NCBI RefSeq assembly: GCF_038397715.1
Contig: NZ_CP151633.1
Location: 3,162,001-3,226,000, forward strand
DNA length: 64,000 bases
Reading direction: 5' to 3'
Origin: Microbacterium sp. LWO14-1.2
GTDB lineage: Bacteria; Actinomycetota; Actinomycetes; Actinomycetales; Microbacteriaceae
This document shows positions 48,164 to 58,190 of the stretch, piece after piece. How positions within the stretch are numbered: the first letter of the stretch is position 1; every line of letters starts with the position of its first letter. The position numbers and the translations under genes were made by a program. The notes below the pieces were generated by a model. It saw only the letters and a list, made by a program, of their open reading frames with translations. It was not told the DNA's origin and did not search any database.

Positions 48164-48171
48164 GCGAGCAG

Positions 48172-48247
48172 TGACACGGGGTGCCGCATCCGCGGCTGAG
48201 AACACACCCGTCGAACCTGATCTAGTTCGTACTAGCGAAGGGATGTC
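48172..48247 (+). promoter_or_regulatory. TPP riboswitch (THI element)
   Basis: The conserved core is complete: ACACGGGGTGCC on the 5' side, then CGGCTGAGA, ACCCGTCGAACCTGATC and TAGTTCGTACTAGCGAAGGGA. Thiamin pyrophosphate binds this RNA. The ribosome site of thiM (AAGGGA, 48237-48242) is part of the 3' strand of the aptamer, so control is most likely by hiding the ribosome site when TPP is bound. Confidence 0.97.
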
Positions 48248-48250
48248 GCG

Positions 48251-49099
48251 ATGAGCGATCGTCTGCGCCCGCAATCCGAATCGACCGTCACCGGTCCAGC
48301 CGCGGAGCTGCTCTCCGCATTGCGTCAGGCCCCACCGCTGACGCACTGCATCACGAACACGGTGGTCACCGGGTTCACCGCCAACGTGCTGCTCGCTCTC
48401 GGTGCAGCGCCGGCGATGGTCGACATCGTCGACGAGGCCGGCCCGTTCGCGCGGGTCGCCTCGGGGATGCTGGTCAACCTGGGGACCCCCACACCCGAAC
48501 AGCGCGAAGCGAGCCGCGAGGCGGTCGCCGCGGCATCCGCCTCCGGCACGCCCTGGGTGCTCGACCCGGTGGCTATCGGCGCACTGCCTGTACGGACGGC
48601 CCTGGCCAGGGAGCTCGCGGCGTCGCGGCCGACCGCCATCCGCGGCAACGCCTCGGAGATCCTCGCGCTCGCCGGGCTGAGCGAAGGGGGACGCGGGGTC
48701 GACGCGGTCGACACGCCGGATGCGGCAGCGGATGCCGCGGCCTTTCTCGCGGAGAGATTCGGCAGCGTCGTCGCGGTCTCCGGTGCGGTCGACCTCCTGA
48801 CCGACGGCAGACGGACGCTGCGCATCGCCAACGGTCATGAGCTGCTCACGCGCGTCACCGGGGGAGGGTGCGCGCTCGGGGCGGTCATGGCCGCGTTCCT
48901 CGGGACCGCCCGTTCCCTGCCGATCGACGCGCTCACCGCCGTCGCCTCCGCGAGCGTCGTCTACACGATCGCCGCGGAACGTGCGGCAGAGGGATCGGCG
49001 GGCCCCGGCAGCTTCGCGGTGGCCCTGCTCGACGCGGTCGCCGCCGTGCAGCCCGGCGACATCGCGGCCGCAGCACGCATCGAGGAGGTCGTGCGGTGA
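48251..49099 (+). CDS. thiM: hydroxyethylthiazole kinase
   Basis: ThiM phosphorylates 4-methyl-5-(2-hydroxyethyl)thiazole for salvage into thiamin. The 282 residues match the family: [20 protein letters not shown] at the N-terminus, the substrate Cys region, [18 protein letters not shown], and the ATP/anion hole [15 protein letters not shown] with the catalytic Cys. It is the first gene behind the TPP riboswitch, and its stop overlaps the GTG of the ThiE-ThiD-TenA fusion. It lies in a pure salvage locus: no thiC or thiG is seen in the window. Confidence 0.96.
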
Positions 49100-51255
49100 T
49101 CGCCGACCTGTCGCTGTACCTCGTCACCGATCCCGACCTGTGCGGCCGTCGCGGCGTGGTCGAGACGGTGCGGCGCGCTGTCGCCGGAGGAGTGCGCATC
49201 GTCCAGCTCCGAGACAAGAACGCGACGGATGCTGAGACGGTCGCGCAGCTCGTCGCTCTGTCGCGGGTGATCGAGGGGCGCGCGCTCCTCGTCGTGAACG
49301 ACCGGCTCGATGCAGCGCTCGCGGCGCGCGCGGCCGGAGCCCGCGTGGACGGCGTGCATCTCGGCCAGGGAGACGCCTCGGTGCGACGGGCGAGGGCGGA
49401 GCTGGGTCCGCACGCGCTGATCGGCCTCACGGCCAACACCTCCGAGCACCTCGACGACGCCCTCGCTCTTCCCGCGGGCACGGTCGACTACCTCGGTGTG
49501 GGCGTCATCCATCCGACCAGCACGAAACCGGATCACCCGCCCGCACTGGGCGTCGAGGGCTTCCGTGCGTTCGCTGCCCGGAGCCCGCTCCCGTGCGTGG
49601 CCATCGGCGGTGTCGGGCGCGCCGACGTGACCGCTCTGCGCGGTGCCGGTGCGGCAGGGGTCGCGGTGGTCTCGGCGCTGTGCGCGGCGAGCGATCCGGC
49701 ATCCGCTGCGGCCGACCTTCTCGCGACGTGGCGATCCGCCGGCGTGCCCCGGGTGCTCTCCATCGCGGGCAGCGATCCGTCCGGCGGTGCGGGGATCCAA
49801 GCCGACCTCAAGTCGATCGCCGCGAACGGCGGGTACGGCATGGCGGCGATCACCGCGCTCACGGCGCAGAACACCCAGGGGGTGCGTGCAGTGCACGTGC
49901 CGCCTCCCCAGATGCTCCACGCACAGCTCGAGGCGCTCGCCGACGACATCGTGATCGACGCGGTCAAGATCGGGATGCTCGCGGACGCCGCCGTGATCGA
50001 GGTGGTCGGCGACTGGCTTCAGCGCGTCCGGCCGCCGATCGTCGTGCTCGACCCCGTCATGGTGGCCACCAGCGGCGACCGGCTGCTCGACCGGGCGGCC
50101 GAGACCGCGATGCGGAAGCTCGTCGAGCTGGCCGACATCGTGACCCCCAACCTCGCCGAGCTGGCCGCGCTGACCGGCGAGTCGATCGGCGGATGGGAGG
50201 ACGCGCTCGCCGCGGCTGAGCGCTTCTCCCGCCGCGCCGGAGTCGCCGTGCTGGTGAAGGGCGGTCACCTGCCGGGCGATGCGGTACCCGACGCGCTGGT
50301 CGACGCGGGTGACGGCATGGTCCGCGAGTTCCCCGGCTCGCGAATCGCGACCGAGAACACGCACGGCACGGGATGCTCGCTCTCGTCCGCGCTCGCGACG
50401 CGGCTCGGCCGCGGGGAGGACCGGGAGACCGCCGTCGCCGCAGCCAGGGAATGGCTGCGCGAATCCCTGCGCTCCGGCGAACGGCTGCGCGTCGGCCGGG
50501 GGAACGGGCCCGTCGACCACTTCGCGGGCCTGTGGGCGCGGGCGGAGGTGACGGATGCCGAAGAGTCGAATCGACCCCGCCCCGGAGATGTCCGGCGCGA
50601 ATGGTGGGAGAGCATCGCCGGCATCCGTTCCGGGATCGACGGTCTGCCCTTCGTCCGAGGACTGGCCGACGGCACGCTCCCGCGCGATGCCTTCCTCTTC
50701 TACCTGCAGCAGGACGCGCTCTATCTGCGCGACTACGCACGCGTGCTCGCCGAGGCGTCACGGCTCGCGCCGACCTCGGCCGAGCAGTCCTTCTGGGCCG
50801 ACGCCGCCCACGGTGCGATCGCGGGAGAGCTCGAACTGCACGCCGCCTGGCTGACCCCCGAGCAGGGCGTGGATGCCGCGACGTTCGACGCCGCGCCGGC
50901 GCCCGCGACCACCGCGTACCTCGATCGTCTGAGGTCGATCGCGTTCGGCGGCGACTATGCCGAGCTCGTCGCGGCCGTCCTGCCGTGCTTCTGGCTGTAC
51001 ACCGACCTCGGTCACCGGCTCCATGCGGGGGAGTTCGGCGCCGCAGCGCGTGACCCCCGGCATCCGTACGCGTCGTGGCTCGCCACGTACGCGGATCCGG
51101 CGTTCGAGGAGGCGACGGAGCGGGCGATCACCTACACGATGTCGGCCGCAGCGGTTGCGGATGCCGGCACGCAGGCCCGCATGCGCCGCGCGTTCGAGGT
51201 CTCCAGCGCGCACGAGCTCGCGTTCTTCGCGGCGGGCACGAGCGGCCTCCTGTGA
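49096..51255 (+). CDS. thiED-tenA: trifunctional ThiE-ThiD-TenA thiamin protein
   Basis: One frame of 719 residues carries three enzymes. Residues about 1-208 are thiamin-phosphate synthase ThiE ([40 protein letters not shown]). Residues about 215-480 are HMP/HMP-P kinase ThiD ([36 protein letters not shown]). Residues about 497-719 are TenA thiaminase II/aminopyrimidine deaminase, with the catalytic Cys in [31 protein letters not shown], and the Glu in SSAHELAFF (a Tyr is usual in place of the His). Together with ThiM it completes salvage of both thiamin halves. GTG start overlapping thiM. Confidence 0.94.
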
Positions 51256-51289
51256 CGCGGCAGATTTGCGCGCCGTGCGAGGCCCGCGC

Positions 51290-51295
51290 TATCGT
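51290..51295 (+). promoter_or_regulatory. -10 box before the Arg-rich leader peptide
   Basis: TATCGT, then CGCGAC, then the ATG of the leader ORF at 51302: the same leaderless spacing as for other genes in this window. Confidence 0.5.
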
Positions 51296-51301
51296 CGCGA
51301 C

Positions 51302-51385
51302 ATGCCTTCGGCCGACTCCGCCACCCTGACGCTCGCTCCGAGCGTCATCGCTGTGCGCCGACGCCGCGGCGGCCGCCGACTGTAG
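51302..51385 (+). CDS. candidate arginine leader peptide upstream of argC
   Basis: A 27-codon ORF that ends [13 protein letters not shown]: six Arg codons (CGC, CGA) within nine positions just before the stop. It starts with ATG six bases after a TATCGT box and ends 108 bases before argC. The build is that of an attenuation leader peptide, in which ribosome stalling at Arg codons would report low charged tRNA-Arg. Between it and argC lie GTGTCG/CGACAC (51425-51449) and other GC-rich stems, but no clear T-run terminator, so the mechanism is open. A chance ORF cannot be excluded. Confidence 0.5.
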   Translation: MPSADSATLTLAPSVIAVRRRRGGRRL

Positions 51386-51481
51386 GCGACCCCGCGCTCC
51401 TGCCTGCCCGGCGGTCGAGTGCCGGTGTCGCCGCCCCGGCCCCCGACACTGCACCCTGAGTTCCGCGAAGGGTCCGACCGT

Positions 51482-51487
51482 TAAGGT
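51482..51487 (+). promoter_or_regulatory. second -10-like box directly before argC
   Basis: TAAGGT, then AGAAGC, then ATG at 51494. If used, it gives a leaderless argC transcript that bypasses the leader peptide; AAGG may instead act as ribosome site. Confidence 0.4.
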
Positions 51488-51493
51488 AGAAGC

Positions 51494-52558
51494 ATGACGT
51501 ATTCCGTCGCCGTCTCCGGCGCATCCGGCTACGCGGGCGGCGAGATCCTACGCCTCCTCGCCGCGCATCCCGACATCGAGATCCGCACCGTCACGGCGCA
51601 CTCGAACGCCGGACAGCCGCTCGTCCAGCACCAGCCGCACCTGCGTTCACTCGCGCACCTCACGCTGCAGGACACGACCCCCGAGATCCTCGCCGGGCAT
51701 GACATCGTGTTCCTCGCGCTGCCGCACGGCCAGTCCGGTCAGTACACGGATGCGCTCGGCGACACCCCGCTCGTGATCGACGCCGGCGCCGACCACCGGC
51801 TCACCTCGCAGGACGCGTGGGACGCGTTCTACGGCGGCGCGTTCCACGACGCCTGGACGTACGGGGTACCCGAGCTGCTCACGGGCGGCGCCAAGCAGCG
51901 CGAGAAGCTGCGCGGTGCGACGAGGATCGCCGCGCCGGGGTGCAACGCCTCGACCGTGAGCCTCAGCCTCGCGCCGGGAGTCGCCGCCGGCGTCATCGAC
52001 CCTCGCGACATCGTCTCCGTGCTCGCCGTCGGCCCCTCGGGCGCCGGCAAGAGCCTGAAGACCAACCTGCTCGCGAGTGAGATCCTCGGCACGGCCAACC
52101 CCTACGCCGTGGGCGGCACCCACCGGCACATCCCGGAGATCCGTCAGGCGCTCGCCGCGGCATCCGGTCTCTCGCCGGAGGCGGCCGCCGACGGCATCCG
52201 CATCTCCTTCACGCCCGTGCTCGTGCCGATGTCGCGGGGGATCCTCGCGACGTCGACGGCGCCGATCGTCGAGGGCGTCACCGACGCCGAGATCCGCGCC
52301 GCCTGGGAGTCCGCGTACGGCGACGAGACGTTCGTGCAGCTGCTGCCGGCGGGCGAGTTCCCTCGCACAGCCGACGTGCTGGGCGCGAACACCGCTCTCA
52401 TCGGACTCGCGATCGACCGCGCCGCCCAGCGCGTGACCGTCGTGACGGCCGTCGACAACCTCGTCAAGGGCACCGCCGGCGCAGCCGTGCAATCCATGAA
52501 CCTCGCGCTGGGACTCCCTGAGTCCCGCGCCCTCTCAGTGAACGGAGTCGCGCCGTGA
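51494..52558 (+). CDS. argC: N-acetyl-gamma-glutamyl-phosphate reductase
   Basis: ArgC reduces N-acetylglutamyl phosphate to the semialdehyde with NADPH in arginine synthesis. The 354 residues contain the nucleotide loop [23 protein letters not shown], the catalytic Cys in [17 protein letters not shown] and the His/Arg segment [10 protein letters not shown]. It is the first gene of argCJBDFH, in which all joints are 1- to 4-base overlaps (GTGA, ATGA, TGATG). The last residues overlap the GTG of argJ. Confidence 0.97.
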
Positions 52559-53712
52559 GCGTCACCGCCCCCGCAGGATTCGAAGCGGCGGGAGTCGCCG
52601 CCGGACTCAAGTCGACCGGCAAGCCCGACGTCGCCGTCGTCGTCAACCGCGGCCCTCGCAAGGTGGGCGCCGCCGTCTTCACGAGCAACCGCGCGAAGGC
52701 GAATCCCATCATCTGGTCGCAGCAGGCCGTGGCCGACCGGGTGGTCGAGGCCGTCGTGCTGAACTCGGGCGGAGCGAACTGCTTCACCGGCAGCTTCGGA
52801 TTCCAGACCACGCATCAGACGGCCGAGAAGGCCGCCGAACTGCTGGGCGTCAGCGCGGGTGACGTGCTCGTCTGCTCGACCGGCCTCATCGGCGTGGGCG
52901 ACGACGTCTTCCGCGGCAAGGTGCTCGCCGGCACGGAGCAGGCCATCGCCGAGCTCTCGGCCGACGGCGGACCCGTGGCGGCCGAGGCCATCATGACCAC
53001 CGACAGCGTGTCGAAGACAGCGGTCGCCAGCCGCGACGGCTGGACCATCGGCGGGATGGCCAAGGGCGCAGGCATGCTCGCTCCCGGTCTCGCGACCATG
53101 CTCGTCGTCATCACGACGGATGCCGTGCTCGAGCCTCTGGAGGCCGACGCCGCGCTGCGGGCCGCGACGGGCCGCACGTTCGACCGCCTCGACTCCGACG
53201 GGTGCATGTCGACGAACGACCAGGTGACGCTGCTCGCCAACGGCGCCTCCGGCATCGCGCCGTCGCTCGACGACTTCGGTGCGGCCCTCCGGGAGCTGTG
53301 CCAGGAGCTCGCCGTCAAGCTGCAGGGCGACGCCGAGGGGGCGAGCCACGACATCACGATCGAGGTGCGCCACGCCGCGTCCGAGAGCGATGCCGTCGAG
53401 GTCGGCCGTTCCGTCGCCCGCAACAACCTGTTCAAGGCCGCGATCTTCGGCAACGACCCGAACTGGGGTCGCGTGCTCGCGGCGATCGGCACGACGAACG
53501 CGCAGTTCGACCCGTACGACGTGGACGTGTGGATGAACGGCGTCCGTGTCTGCAGCGAGGGCGGTCCCGATCGTCCGCGCGAGGAGGTCGACCTGACGCC
53601 GCGCGCCACGCACCTCGTCATCGATCTCAAGGTCGGCGACGAGACGGCGACGATCCTCACCAACGATCTCACCCACGACTACGTGCACGAGAACAGCGCC
53701 TACGCCTCATGA
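52555..53712 (+). CDS. argJ: glutamate N-acetyltransferase / ornithine acetyltransferase
   Basis: ArgJ moves the acetyl group from N-acetylornithine to glutamate and so recycles it. The 385-residue precursor cuts itself before the nucleophile Thr in [17 protein letters not shown], giving two chains. [18 protein letters not shown] and [23 protein letters not shown] are further family signatures. In actinobacteria it often also does the first step with acetyl-CoA; the sequence does not show if this one does. GTG start overlapping argC; stop overlapping argB. Confidence 0.96.
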
Positions 53713-54626
53713 CCGACATCCAGGACACCACGCCGGACGTCGCGGCCGTCAAGGCGTCGACGCTCATCGAATCCCTGCCGTGGCTGAAGAAGTTCCGCGA
53801 TCAGATCGTCGTCGTCAAGTACGGCGGCAACGCGATGGTCTCGGACGAGCTGCAGGAGGCCTTCGCGCAGGACATCGCGTATCTGCGGTACGTGGGCGTG
53901 CTGCCGGTCGTCGTGCACGGCGGGGGACCGCAGATCTCGAACATGCTCGAGCGTCTCGAGATCCCCAGCGAGTTCAAGGGCGGCTACCGCGTCACCAACA
54001 CGGAGGCCATCAGCGTCGTGCGGATGGTGCTCACCGGTCAGGTGAACCCGCAGCTCGTGTCGAAGATCAACTCGCACGGCCCGATCGCGACCGGTCTCAG
54101 CGGAGAGGATGCCGGACTCTTCGGGGGACGCCGCCGCGGGGTCGTCGTGGACGGGGAGGAGATCGATCTCGGACGCGTGGGCGACGTCGTGCAGGTCGAT
54201 CCGACGCCGGTGCTCGACCACCTGACGGCAGGGCGGGTTCCCGTGGTCTCGAGCATCGCGCCCGACCTCGACCACCCCGGTCAGTCGCTCAACGTGAACG
54301 CCGACGCCGCGGCGGCCGCGCTCGCGGTGGCGCTCAGGGCGCGCAAGCTCGTGATTCTCACCGATGTGCCGGGGCTGTACGCCGACTGGCCGAACCGCGA
54401 CTCGCTCGTCTCGCACCTCACCTCGGAGGCTCTCGTCGAGATGCTGCCGTCGCTCGAGTCGGGCATGATCCCGAAGATGCGCGCGTGCCTCGACGCGGTC
54501 GAGGGCGGCGTCGACGCCGCAGCGATCATCGACGGACGAGTACCGCACTCGGTGCTCGTCGAGCTCTTCACGAGCAAGGGAATCGGAACAGAAGTGGTCA
54601 AGGGAAGCGCAGGGACGACGGCATGA
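53709..54626 (+). CDS. argB: acetylglutamate kinase
   Basis: ArgB phosphorylates N-acetylglutamate and is usually the arginine-inhibited step. The 305 residues show [10 protein letters not shown] and [14 protein letters not shown] (ATP and substrate loops), the FKGGYRVTN segment, and [17 protein letters not shown] with [10 protein letters not shown] near the C-terminus. The N-terminal extension (about 1-25, ending [13 protein letters not shown]) matches the helix that arginine-sensitive hexameric kinases use for feedback inhibition, so this enzyme is probably inhibited by arginine. ATGA overlap with argJ. Confidence 0.96.
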
Positions 54627-55830
54627 GCAACTGGCAGGACGACGCGGAGAACGACCTGGTCCTCAACGCGGGACGCCGACTCGCTCTCCTCACGCGCGGA
54701 GAGGGTTCGTACCTCTGGGATTCGGAGGGCACCCGGCACCTCGACTTCCTCGCCGGTATCGCGGTGACCTCGCTCGGTCACGCGCACCCGGTGTTCGTGG
54801 ACGCCGTCGCCACCCAGGCGGCGACCCTCGCACACGTCTCCAACTACTTCGCGACGCCGCCGCAGCTGGCTCTCGCCGCCCGCCTCAAGCGTCTCGCGGG
54901 CGCCGGCATCGAGGGCCGCGTGTTCTTCTCCAACTCGGGAGCCGAGGCGAACGAGGCGGCTTTCAAGCTCGCCCGTCTGCACGGAGGAGCCGACAGGCCG
55001 CGCATCATCGCTCTCGAGAACGGCTTCCACGGCCGCACGATGGGGTCGCTCGCGCTCACGGCGAAACCCGCGATGCGGGCCCCCTTCGAACCCATGCCGG
55101 GGGGAGTCGAGCACATCCCCGCCACCGTCGACGCGCTGGAGGCGGCACTCGACGACCGCGTCGCCGCCGTCATCGTCGAACCGATCCAGGGAGAGGCGGG
55201 CGTCGTCGAACTGCCCGAGGGGTACCTGCAGGCCGCACGGTCGCTGACGCTGGCGCACGGTGCCCTGCTCATCGTCGACGAGATCCAGACGGGCGCTGGG
55301 CGCACCGGCGCCTGGTTCGGCTTCAGTCACGAGGGCATCATCCCCGACGCCATCACGCTGGCCAAGGGCATCGGCGGAGGGTTCCCCATCGGCGCTCTCG
55401 TCACCTACGGTGCGGCCAGCTCGCTGTTCACGCCCGGTTCGCACGGATCGACGTTCGGCGGCAATCCGCTCGCCACCGCCGTGGCCGACGCGGTGCTCGC
55501 CGAGATCGAGCGCGCCGGCCTCGTCGACAATGCCGCCCGTCGTGGGCAGGAGCTGCGCGAGATCATCACGGGTCTCGACTCGCCCCTCGTCGCGGGGGTG
55601 CGCGGACGCGGCCTGCTGATCGGCGTCGAGCTCAGCGCTCCGGTCGCCGGAGACGTGGTGGCCGCCGCTCAGGCGCACGGCCTCATCGTCAATGCGGCCA
55701 ACCCCGAGACCGTGCGCATCGCGCCCGCTCTCACGATCAGGGATGCCGAGCTCGCCGAGTTCCGCGACCTGTTCGCCGCCGCGCTCGCCGACGTCTCGGC
55801 ATCCCTCACCGACTCCGGAAAGGCCCACGC

Positions 55831-55834
<4 letters not shown>
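54623..55834 (+). CDS. argD: acetylornithine aminotransferase
   Basis: A PLP class III aminotransferase of 403 residues that makes N-acetylornithine. Features are the Ser/Gly phosphate loop [28 protein letters not shown], the Asp in [14 protein letters not shown], the PLP lysine in [15 protein letters not shown] and [15 protein letters not shown]. The ATG overlaps the argB stop, and argF overlaps its own stop. It may also serve as succinyl-diaminopimelate aminotransferase, as in other bacteria. Confidence 0.96.

Positions 55835-58190
<2,356 letters not shown>

Follow-up and report, generated by a model that had tools for sequence, protein, structure and literature searches.

Arginine biosynthesis in bacteria is a textbook case of control by ArgR. 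The closest described counterparts of the element reported here are the leaderless short ORFs with poly-Cys runs that act as attenuators in mycobacteria (Shell et al., 2015, PMC4633059; Canestrari et al., 2020, as cited in PMC9094748 and PMC13236596). They share with the arg leader described below a leaderless start, which for the arg leader is a prediction, a run of codons for the end product near the C-terminus, and a position upstream of the corresponding pathway. The arg leader differs in that it pairs Arg codons with argCJBDFH, occurs in another family, carries a conserved hairpin past its stop codon, and is found where no ArgR was detected. An earlier actinobacterial survey (Seliverstov et al., 2005, PMC1262725), whose genome set included Leifsonia xyli, reports that arginine operons were not preceded by conserved RNA structures and that mycobacterial cys leaders showed no conserved terminator hairpin. 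The same survey describes actinobacterial cys-operon leader peptides without a terminator for which Rho was suggested, a combination that the arg leader shares.

Attenuators of the trp, his, and ilv type, including ilvB1 of Mycobacterium tuberculosis (PMC13236596), resemble the arg leader in their end-product codons and in a stop codon placed such that a terminating ribosome overlaps strand 2; they differ in that no U-run terminator was found for the arg leader and that its output is probably Rho-dependent or translational. Consecutive Arg codons also sense arginine in the orf34 leader of speF in Salmonella (PMC6386406), where a hairpin likewise lies just past the stop codon and Rho is involved. 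Compared by description only, orf34 differs in controlling ornithine decarboxylase, in having a Shine-Dalgarno sequence, and in belonging to the Gammaproteobacteria. In the rbfL leader of S. aureus (PMC13009471), Arg codons sense charged tRNA-Arg as well, but stalling there blocks a downstream RBS and represses a biofilm regulator, and rbfL uses AGA/AGG codons whereas the arg leader uses CGN only. No arginine leader peptide at argC in Actinobacteria was found among the titles and abstract openings of the open-access papers listed.

The leader ORF and the arg operon

The window analysed is a stretch of 64,000 nucleotides from Microbacterium sp. LWO14-1.2, a member of the Microbacteriaceae (NZ_CP151633.1, positions 3,162,001 to 3,226,000). 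The locus consists of the following features, all on the forward strand:

51265-51270, + strand: -35-like TTTGCG of the leader promoter, at fixed spacing
51290-51295, + strand: -10 box TATCGT; the transcript is predicted to begin with the A of ATG 51302 or right beside it
51302-51385, + strand: putatively leaderless leader-peptide ORF of 27 codons, ATG at 51302, stop codon TAG at 51383-51385
51356-51367, + strand: early Arg codons CGC CGA CGC CGC, the putative sensor cluster
51374-51379, + strand: late Arg codons CGC CGA, the CGA being nearly invariant
51385-51432, + strand: hairpin P, in which GGCGAC (51385-51390) pairs with GTCGCC (51427-51432), plus an inner stem
51433-51481, + strand: tail rich in C and poor in G that links P to the Shine-Dalgarno sequence, a candidate Rho-loading stretch
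51483-51486, + strand: AAGG Shine-Dalgarno sequence of argC, overlapping the -10-like TAAGGT at 51482-51487
51494-52558, + strand: argC, first gene of the operon (TIGR01850 equivalog, 328.7 bits)
52555-58190, + strand: argJ, argB, argD, argF, and argH (NCBIfam, above curated cut-offs), with overlaps of up to 4 nt; argH ends at 58190

An earlier sequence-only reading had placed an ORF of 27 codons at 51302-51385, six nucleotides after a TATCGT -10 box and 108 nt ahead of the argC ATG at 51494, and had named argCJBDFH as the genes downstream. The coordinates proved exact, the distance from leader stop to argC was confirmed, and all six genes scored above their NCBIfam cut-offs. Its description of the Arg run, six codons broken by two Gly, was correct for this species and its close kin but not for the family as a whole, where the pattern was a cluster of early Arg codons followed, at codon -2 relative to the stop position, by a CGA that hardly ever varied. 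When the whole window was screened on both strands for ORFs of 12-45 codons with the arrangement TANNNT-N5-8-ATG/GTG, three short ORFs were obtained; the leader ORF had six Arg among its last 12 residues and the runner-up three, which argues that the leader ORF is more than a chance occurrence.

A multidomain (fused) thiamine gene, whose end at 51255 lies shortly before the leader promoter, is itself preceded by a TPP riboswitch (48167-48260, 72.5 bits). The closest named argC relatives were from Microbacterium, at up to 95% identity, with the window's own record possibly excluded from this comparison. No copies of the leader element were found elsewhere in its own genome, which contained a single match to the RNA model introduced below. 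At the leader site, Rfam gave no match at the gathering score and only chance-level ones (E 2.4 and 6.6), and a T-box, riboswitch, or other Rfam element was rejected because no curated RNA family matches the site. A similar leader was not seen before argG of the same genome, which lies outside the operon (near position 1500 of stretch L122); argG has a TAGACT box shortly before its ATG, has no Arg leader, and itself looks leaderless.

Conservation of the leader in the genus and the family

An Arg-rich ORF with a predicted leaderless start was present at 29 of 30 argC loci of the same genus, the window included; the one locus without it, L020, belongs to a genome that is 77% complete and gave only a weak match to the RNA model (24.9 bits). 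Among named loci, of which the 80 best were taken from at least 519 relatives, all 80 had a similar Arg-rich ORF before argC and all 80 matched the RNA model R1. These loci are mostly Microbacterium, with one Frigoribacterium and several titled only Microbacteriaceae or Actinomycetota; they overlap partially with the family genome sample, and the criterion used for their ORFs includes the box and the Arg content.

In the family sample, ArgC was found in 236 of 249 genomes. Sixty stretches were hand-picked from approximately 150 listed argC places, out of the 236 matched genomes, at about one to two per genus, so that distant genomes are under-sampled; the fetched set, minus the duplicates L032 and L033, came to 118 stretches. 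Under a criterion that again includes box and Arg content, 90 of the 118 argC upstream regions passed, and 89 remained after one false positive (L074) had been dropped by judgement. The leader was not seen in 29 upstream regions, all of which were re-read with a looser rule without any being re-counted as a leader; L020 and L115, the latter also with a weak model match (21.1 bits), are counted as loci without one. One further locus, L105, was missed in one intermediate step.

Conservation of start codon and frame, together with synonymous change within the Arg run, had been named beforehand as signs that would support an attenuator, and both were observed. In order to avoid circularity, nothing but the TANNNT box and a start codon was used to choose starts, and nothing but base pairing to choose the helix. 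Of 80 candidate starts, 78 were in frame with the Arg codons, at start-to-hairpin distances anywhere between 44 and 113 nt, and this agreement between separate picks of start and hairpin supports the attenuator; the early Arg codons varied between CGC, CGT, and CGA. The leaders underlying model R1 number 68 of the 86, with 18 omitted as unusual or redundant, so matches within the family are not independent of it. It matched 119 of the 249 family genomes, once each (E 0.001), and all 93 of these 119 matches whose place was checkable ended at the start of argC. The locus thus shows what leader-peptide attenuators show in general, a short ORF enriched in codons for the end product and conserved in frame, and judged by sequence comparison it is a real and widespread Arg-codon leader with a post-stop hairpin.

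Arg codons of the leader

Across the 86 leaders, Arg accounted for 47% of the last 12 codons in frame and for 7% and 16% in the other two forward frames. One reverse-strand frame of the leader end was equally rich in Arg (49%), so the GC-rich base composition helps to produce Arg. All 86 leaders had at least one Arg in codons -10 to -5, and 75 had at least three. Codons -9 to -7 of the early cluster were Arg in 66, 64, and 67 of the 86, with mixed third bases, while in the late cluster codon -3 was CGC in 61 of 86 family leaders and codon -2 was CGA in 85 of them, as it was in all 79 readable named loci (from the best 80 of at least 519 relatives); CGN at codon -2 served as the anchor for locating strand 2, its identity as CGA did not. 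I read the early cluster as an apparent amino-acid constraint because its third bases vary synonymously, and the late CGC CGA as a probable nucleotide or codon constraint. For the near-invariant CGA (51377-51379), slow inosine-A decoding and a pairing role are both possible.

A single tRNA-Arg with inosine decodes CGC, CGU, and CGA. These three codons made up 601 of the 639 Arg codons in the leaders (175 were CGA), the remainder being 38 CGG and no AGR, a usage with which the leader might sense mainly one tRNA-Arg isoacceptor. The arg operon of the window has 129 Arg codons, including 6 CGA, 22 CGG, and 6 AGG.

Promoter-like boxes and the predicted leaderless start

The -10 box stood 6 nt before the start codon in 68 of 89 family loci and 7-9 nt before it in the rest, the presence of the box being part of the search criterion. 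Of 79 named loci, 73 had TTTG before the -10 box at a single constant distance, with 19 nt separating the hexamer from the box; the background in random 22-nt windows was 6.6%. The start codon is thus accompanied by -10 and -35 elements at near-fixed spacing, across the family and the named loci, respectively, and transcription would begin at or next to the leader ATG, with a 70S ribosome starting on the leaderless ORF. A scan for sigma-70 consensus promoters, which does not cover actinobacterial promoters, gave no match in 50900-51700.

The post-stop hairpin and competing stems

In the window, P starts at the last base of the leader stop codon and has an MFE of -30.9 kcal/mol (z -4.13, with 0 of 200 shuffles as good). 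Over the 86 leaders the z-score of P, whose 3' end was chosen by best pairing, averaged -3.54 and was below -1 in 84. The outer helix GGCGAC/GTCGCC was paired in 91.2% of cells, compared with at most 67.3% for slid versions, and its further pair types exceeded 500 of 500 shuffles, the covariation being modest. The outermost four pairs (GGCG/CGCC) are given by my own selection rule, and RNAalifold returned only four outer pairs, without a covariation term. In the full-length leader of the window another fold was preferred, leaving P with a probability of 0.03; the family mean was 0.64.

Covarying alternative stems between 51386 and 51480 had been named as a further sign that would support the attenuator. 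This was borne out in part: a conserved hairpin with modest covariation in its main helix was found; the competing stems 1:2 and 1:3 showed covariation not above shuffles, and stem 1:2 (CGCCGA with TAGGCG) and stem 1:3 were accordingly rejected as proven alternatives. A motif-only pairing test, from which locus L062 is missing, was weak (62% vs 57% shuffled, with 53% for the best slid version), and best-partner pairing reached 5.52 vs 5.16 (sd 0.098), a value also attained in one or more of 5000 permutations. In 63 of 86 leaders the stop codon coincides with the base of P, and in 23 it falls 12-30 nt later, inside P, so a terminating ribosome would always disturb P.

A 3:4 stem (GCCG-NNNN-CGGC) following strand 3 was seen by eye in Microbacterium loci only. 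The bases after strand 3 in L012, L014, L018, and L019 (GTCGCCGTCTCCGGC) are the same as the VAVSG codons of argC in the window (51506-51520); strand 2 could in principle pair with either copy, which may be chance in GC-rich DNA.

The tail, Rho, and the Shine-Dalgarno sequence of argC

The lack of a clear T-run terminator, previously listed as a weak point, was borne out: there were no terminator-like sites in 50900-51700, and no U-run was visible by eye in 68 aligned relatives. An intrinsic terminator was rejected on the former count, and since a terminator was searched for and not found, this is not a classical terminator attenuator. The tails of the family averaged 47% C and 22% G, compared with 35% and 34% in the hairpin region and 31% and 34% in argC upstream regions without a leader, and they were unstructured (mean z 0.1). 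A Rho RNA-binding domain is present in the genome, and the locus thereby combines the C-rich, G-poor, unstructured RNA of a Rho-dependent leader with Rho itself; Rho would be the output step.

A Shine-Dalgarno-like core preceded argC at 86 of 89 leader loci and at 10 of 29 loci without a leader (p 5.5e-12, Fisher's test, relatedness ignored). The TANNNT shape was present before argC at 75 of the 89, and the 14 others kept the Shine-Dalgarno sequence. At loci without a leader, 18 of 29 had a box and no Shine-Dalgarno sequence, many of them TAGATT about 6 nt before the argC start. L067, L069, L077, L081, L089, L099, L102, L103, L107, and L110 have no leader, a TANNNT box, and no Shine-Dalgarno sequence. 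The sequence-only reading had taken TAAGGT as a promoter box of argC's own; the hexamer is there, but it is kept more consistently as a Shine-Dalgarno sequence (86 of 89) than as a box (75 of 89). Given this sequence at leader loci and the box without it elsewhere, the leader mRNA probably serves as the template for ArgC translation at loci that have a leader, and argC is probably leaderless in most loci that have none.

The cost of opening the Shine-Dalgarno sequence, with the ribosome at the stop compared with the Arg cluster, differed by a mean of 0.16 kcal/mol over the 86 leaders (21 above +1 and 14 below -1), in no consistent direction. Direct sequestration of the argC Shine-Dalgarno sequence by a hairpin switch was rejected for this reason, and transcription with Rho is tentatively favoured over translation as the output.

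ArgR and the taxonomic range of the leader

The C-terminal domain of ArgR (PF02863) was detected in none of the 249 family genomes, the window's own included; in a control set it was detected in 8 of 14 well-known named genomes. In an order-wide sample, ArgR was present in 181 of 198 genomes: in 0 of 14 from the family and in 181 of 184 others, the three non-family genomes without it being two of 0.8-0.9 Mb and one that is fragmented. The leader model matched 13 of the 14 family genomes vs 0 of the 184 others, and outside the family it gave no match in a class-wide sample of 296. About half of the family sample had no model match (119 of 249 positive), so loss of ArgR and possession of the leader do not always go together; gain of the leader and loss of ArgR were not one event, or else the leader was lost again or diverged in part of the family. 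In 13 of the 249 genomes of the family, argC could not be detected and ArgR was missing as well; 11 of these 13 are 0.9-1.8 Mb in size.

Mechanism and rival explanations

An Arg attenuator acting on the arg operon through the leader peptide had been suggested at the outset, and the conservation of ORF, frame, Arg codons, and hairpin is in its favour as far as sequences can tell. These features, the boxes, the Shine-Dalgarno sequence, the C-rich tail, and the finding of no ArgR led by comparison to the attenuator reading. That it is an Arg-codon attenuator as such is highly probable, and that it is a ribosome-stalling attenuator tuning argCJBDFH to tRNA-Arg charging, in place of ArgR, is likely; the exact wiring proposed here is tentative, with chances slightly below even. 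When charged tRNA-Arg is short, a ribosome would stall on the early Arg cluster, about 20-30 nt before the stop position, P would fold, and the operon would be made. When arginine is ample, the ribosome would reach the base of P, with the stop there or 4-10 codons beyond, and would keep P open, so that about 90 nt of C-rich RNA (109 nt in the window) would be exposed before argC and Rho would most likely terminate transcription. Translation of the leader, stalling, the direction of control, and Rho as the effector are what I infer from this arrangement.

The same sensor could also act through a repressive P, which a ribosome stalled on the late CGC CGA would block. Erm-type translational attenuation is the model for such a scheme, and by analogy it is perhaps also the mode of the mycobacterial Cys leaders. 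No codon is better conserved than the late CGA (85 of 86 leaders), a ribosome on it would cover strand 2, and the distance of 36-45 nt between P and the argC AUG in 67 of 86 hints at a link to initiation. The early Arg cluster, however, would trap ribosomes where P stays free, and the small mean difference in Shine-Dalgarno opening is inconsistent across the 86 leaders, and I regard a repressive P as unlikely. It seems quite improbable that the Arg run is a by-product of constraint on the RNA or DNA, such as a structured 5' UTR or a protein site, with an ORF that is no sensor: the near fixation of CGC CGA and GGCGAC at the nucleotide level, the Arg-rich antisense frame, and two loci with the hairpin at the end of pheT and no Arg leader (L087 and L092, below) would fit, but the frame is kept in 78 of 80 despite changing length, the early Arg codons differ synonymously, and the start codon stands at fixed spacing from -10 and -35 elements.

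If argC were expressed mainly from its own leaderless promoter (TAAGGT at 51482), the leader transcript would be minor. The TANNNT shape at 75 of 89 leader loci agrees with this, but the Shine-Dalgarno-like core is found at 86 of 89, including the 14 with a broken box, the 18 of 29 leader-free loci with a box, many TAGATT, do without a Shine-Dalgarno sequence, and inspection by eye revealed no -35 element at a constant distance; the prospect is slim. Another reading invokes an arrest peptide responding to free arginine within the ribosomal tunnel, as the fungal arginine attenuator peptide does, and it would suit the Arg-rich C-terminal end with its R at codon -2 in 86 of 86 leaders (CGN there being part of the strand 2 search). 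Against this, the remaining peptide sequence is not conserved, and the stop, with an offset of 0 in 63 of the 86 leaders, is displaced by 12-30 nt in the other 23, which leaves no fixed arrest site and makes an arrest peptide extremely improbable.

A more far-reaching version of the stalling attenuator is doubtful, namely that ArgR was given up family-wide and that in most of the lineages read a leaderless peptide runs arginine synthesis by sensing mainly one isoacceptor. In this version, slow decoding of the nearly invariant CGA would set how long the ribosome sits on the base of P, and P in turn would decide whether Rho gains access. With no ArgR found in the family and Arg-codon leaders before the arg operon in much of it, a sensor based on translation seems to have taken the place of a DNA-binding repressor. 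At this locus, attenuation on a leaderless mRNA that lacks an intrinsic terminator would be open to direct testing, and arginine production in Microbacterium would gain a point of regulatory control; the locus also presents a recurrent RNA element without an Rfam match at the leader site.

The hairpin at the end of pheT

In two loci, L087 (genus g26) and L092 (genus g57), the R1 match fell on the 3' end of the upstream gene:

L087, 301-408, - strand: R1 match at the end of pheT, directly before argC
L092, 298-407, - strand: R1 match at the end of pheT, directly before argC

The upstream gene of L087 has a C-terminus of the PheT-type FDX-ACB domain (PF03147, 45.6 bits). The hairpin starts within the last pheT codons (ending GERFGATLRD, then stop), with z-scores of -2.9 in L087 and -2.2 in L092, and is followed by a similar tail and start region. 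A looser re-reading of both loci gave no separate Arg-rich ORF, and they stay counted as loci without a leader, strong R1 matches as they are. The two genera contribute 9 of the 119 R1 matches, two loci having been read. Hairpin and Arg run are therefore separable; possibly the hairpin arose before the Arg leader did, or possibly L087 and L092 once had a leader and lost it. On account of these two loci my confidence in the stalling attenuator was lowered slightly, within the range of likely.

A PheT-like end lies upstream at 31 leader loci and at 14 of 29 others. A general similarity between leader ends and pheT ends was unsupported, with 9.53 of 18 positions identical compared with 9.26 (sd 1.1) after codon shuffling. 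The Arg leader of L105 ends in GERLGASFPG, which resembles the PheT end GERFGATLRD (23 of 33 nt).
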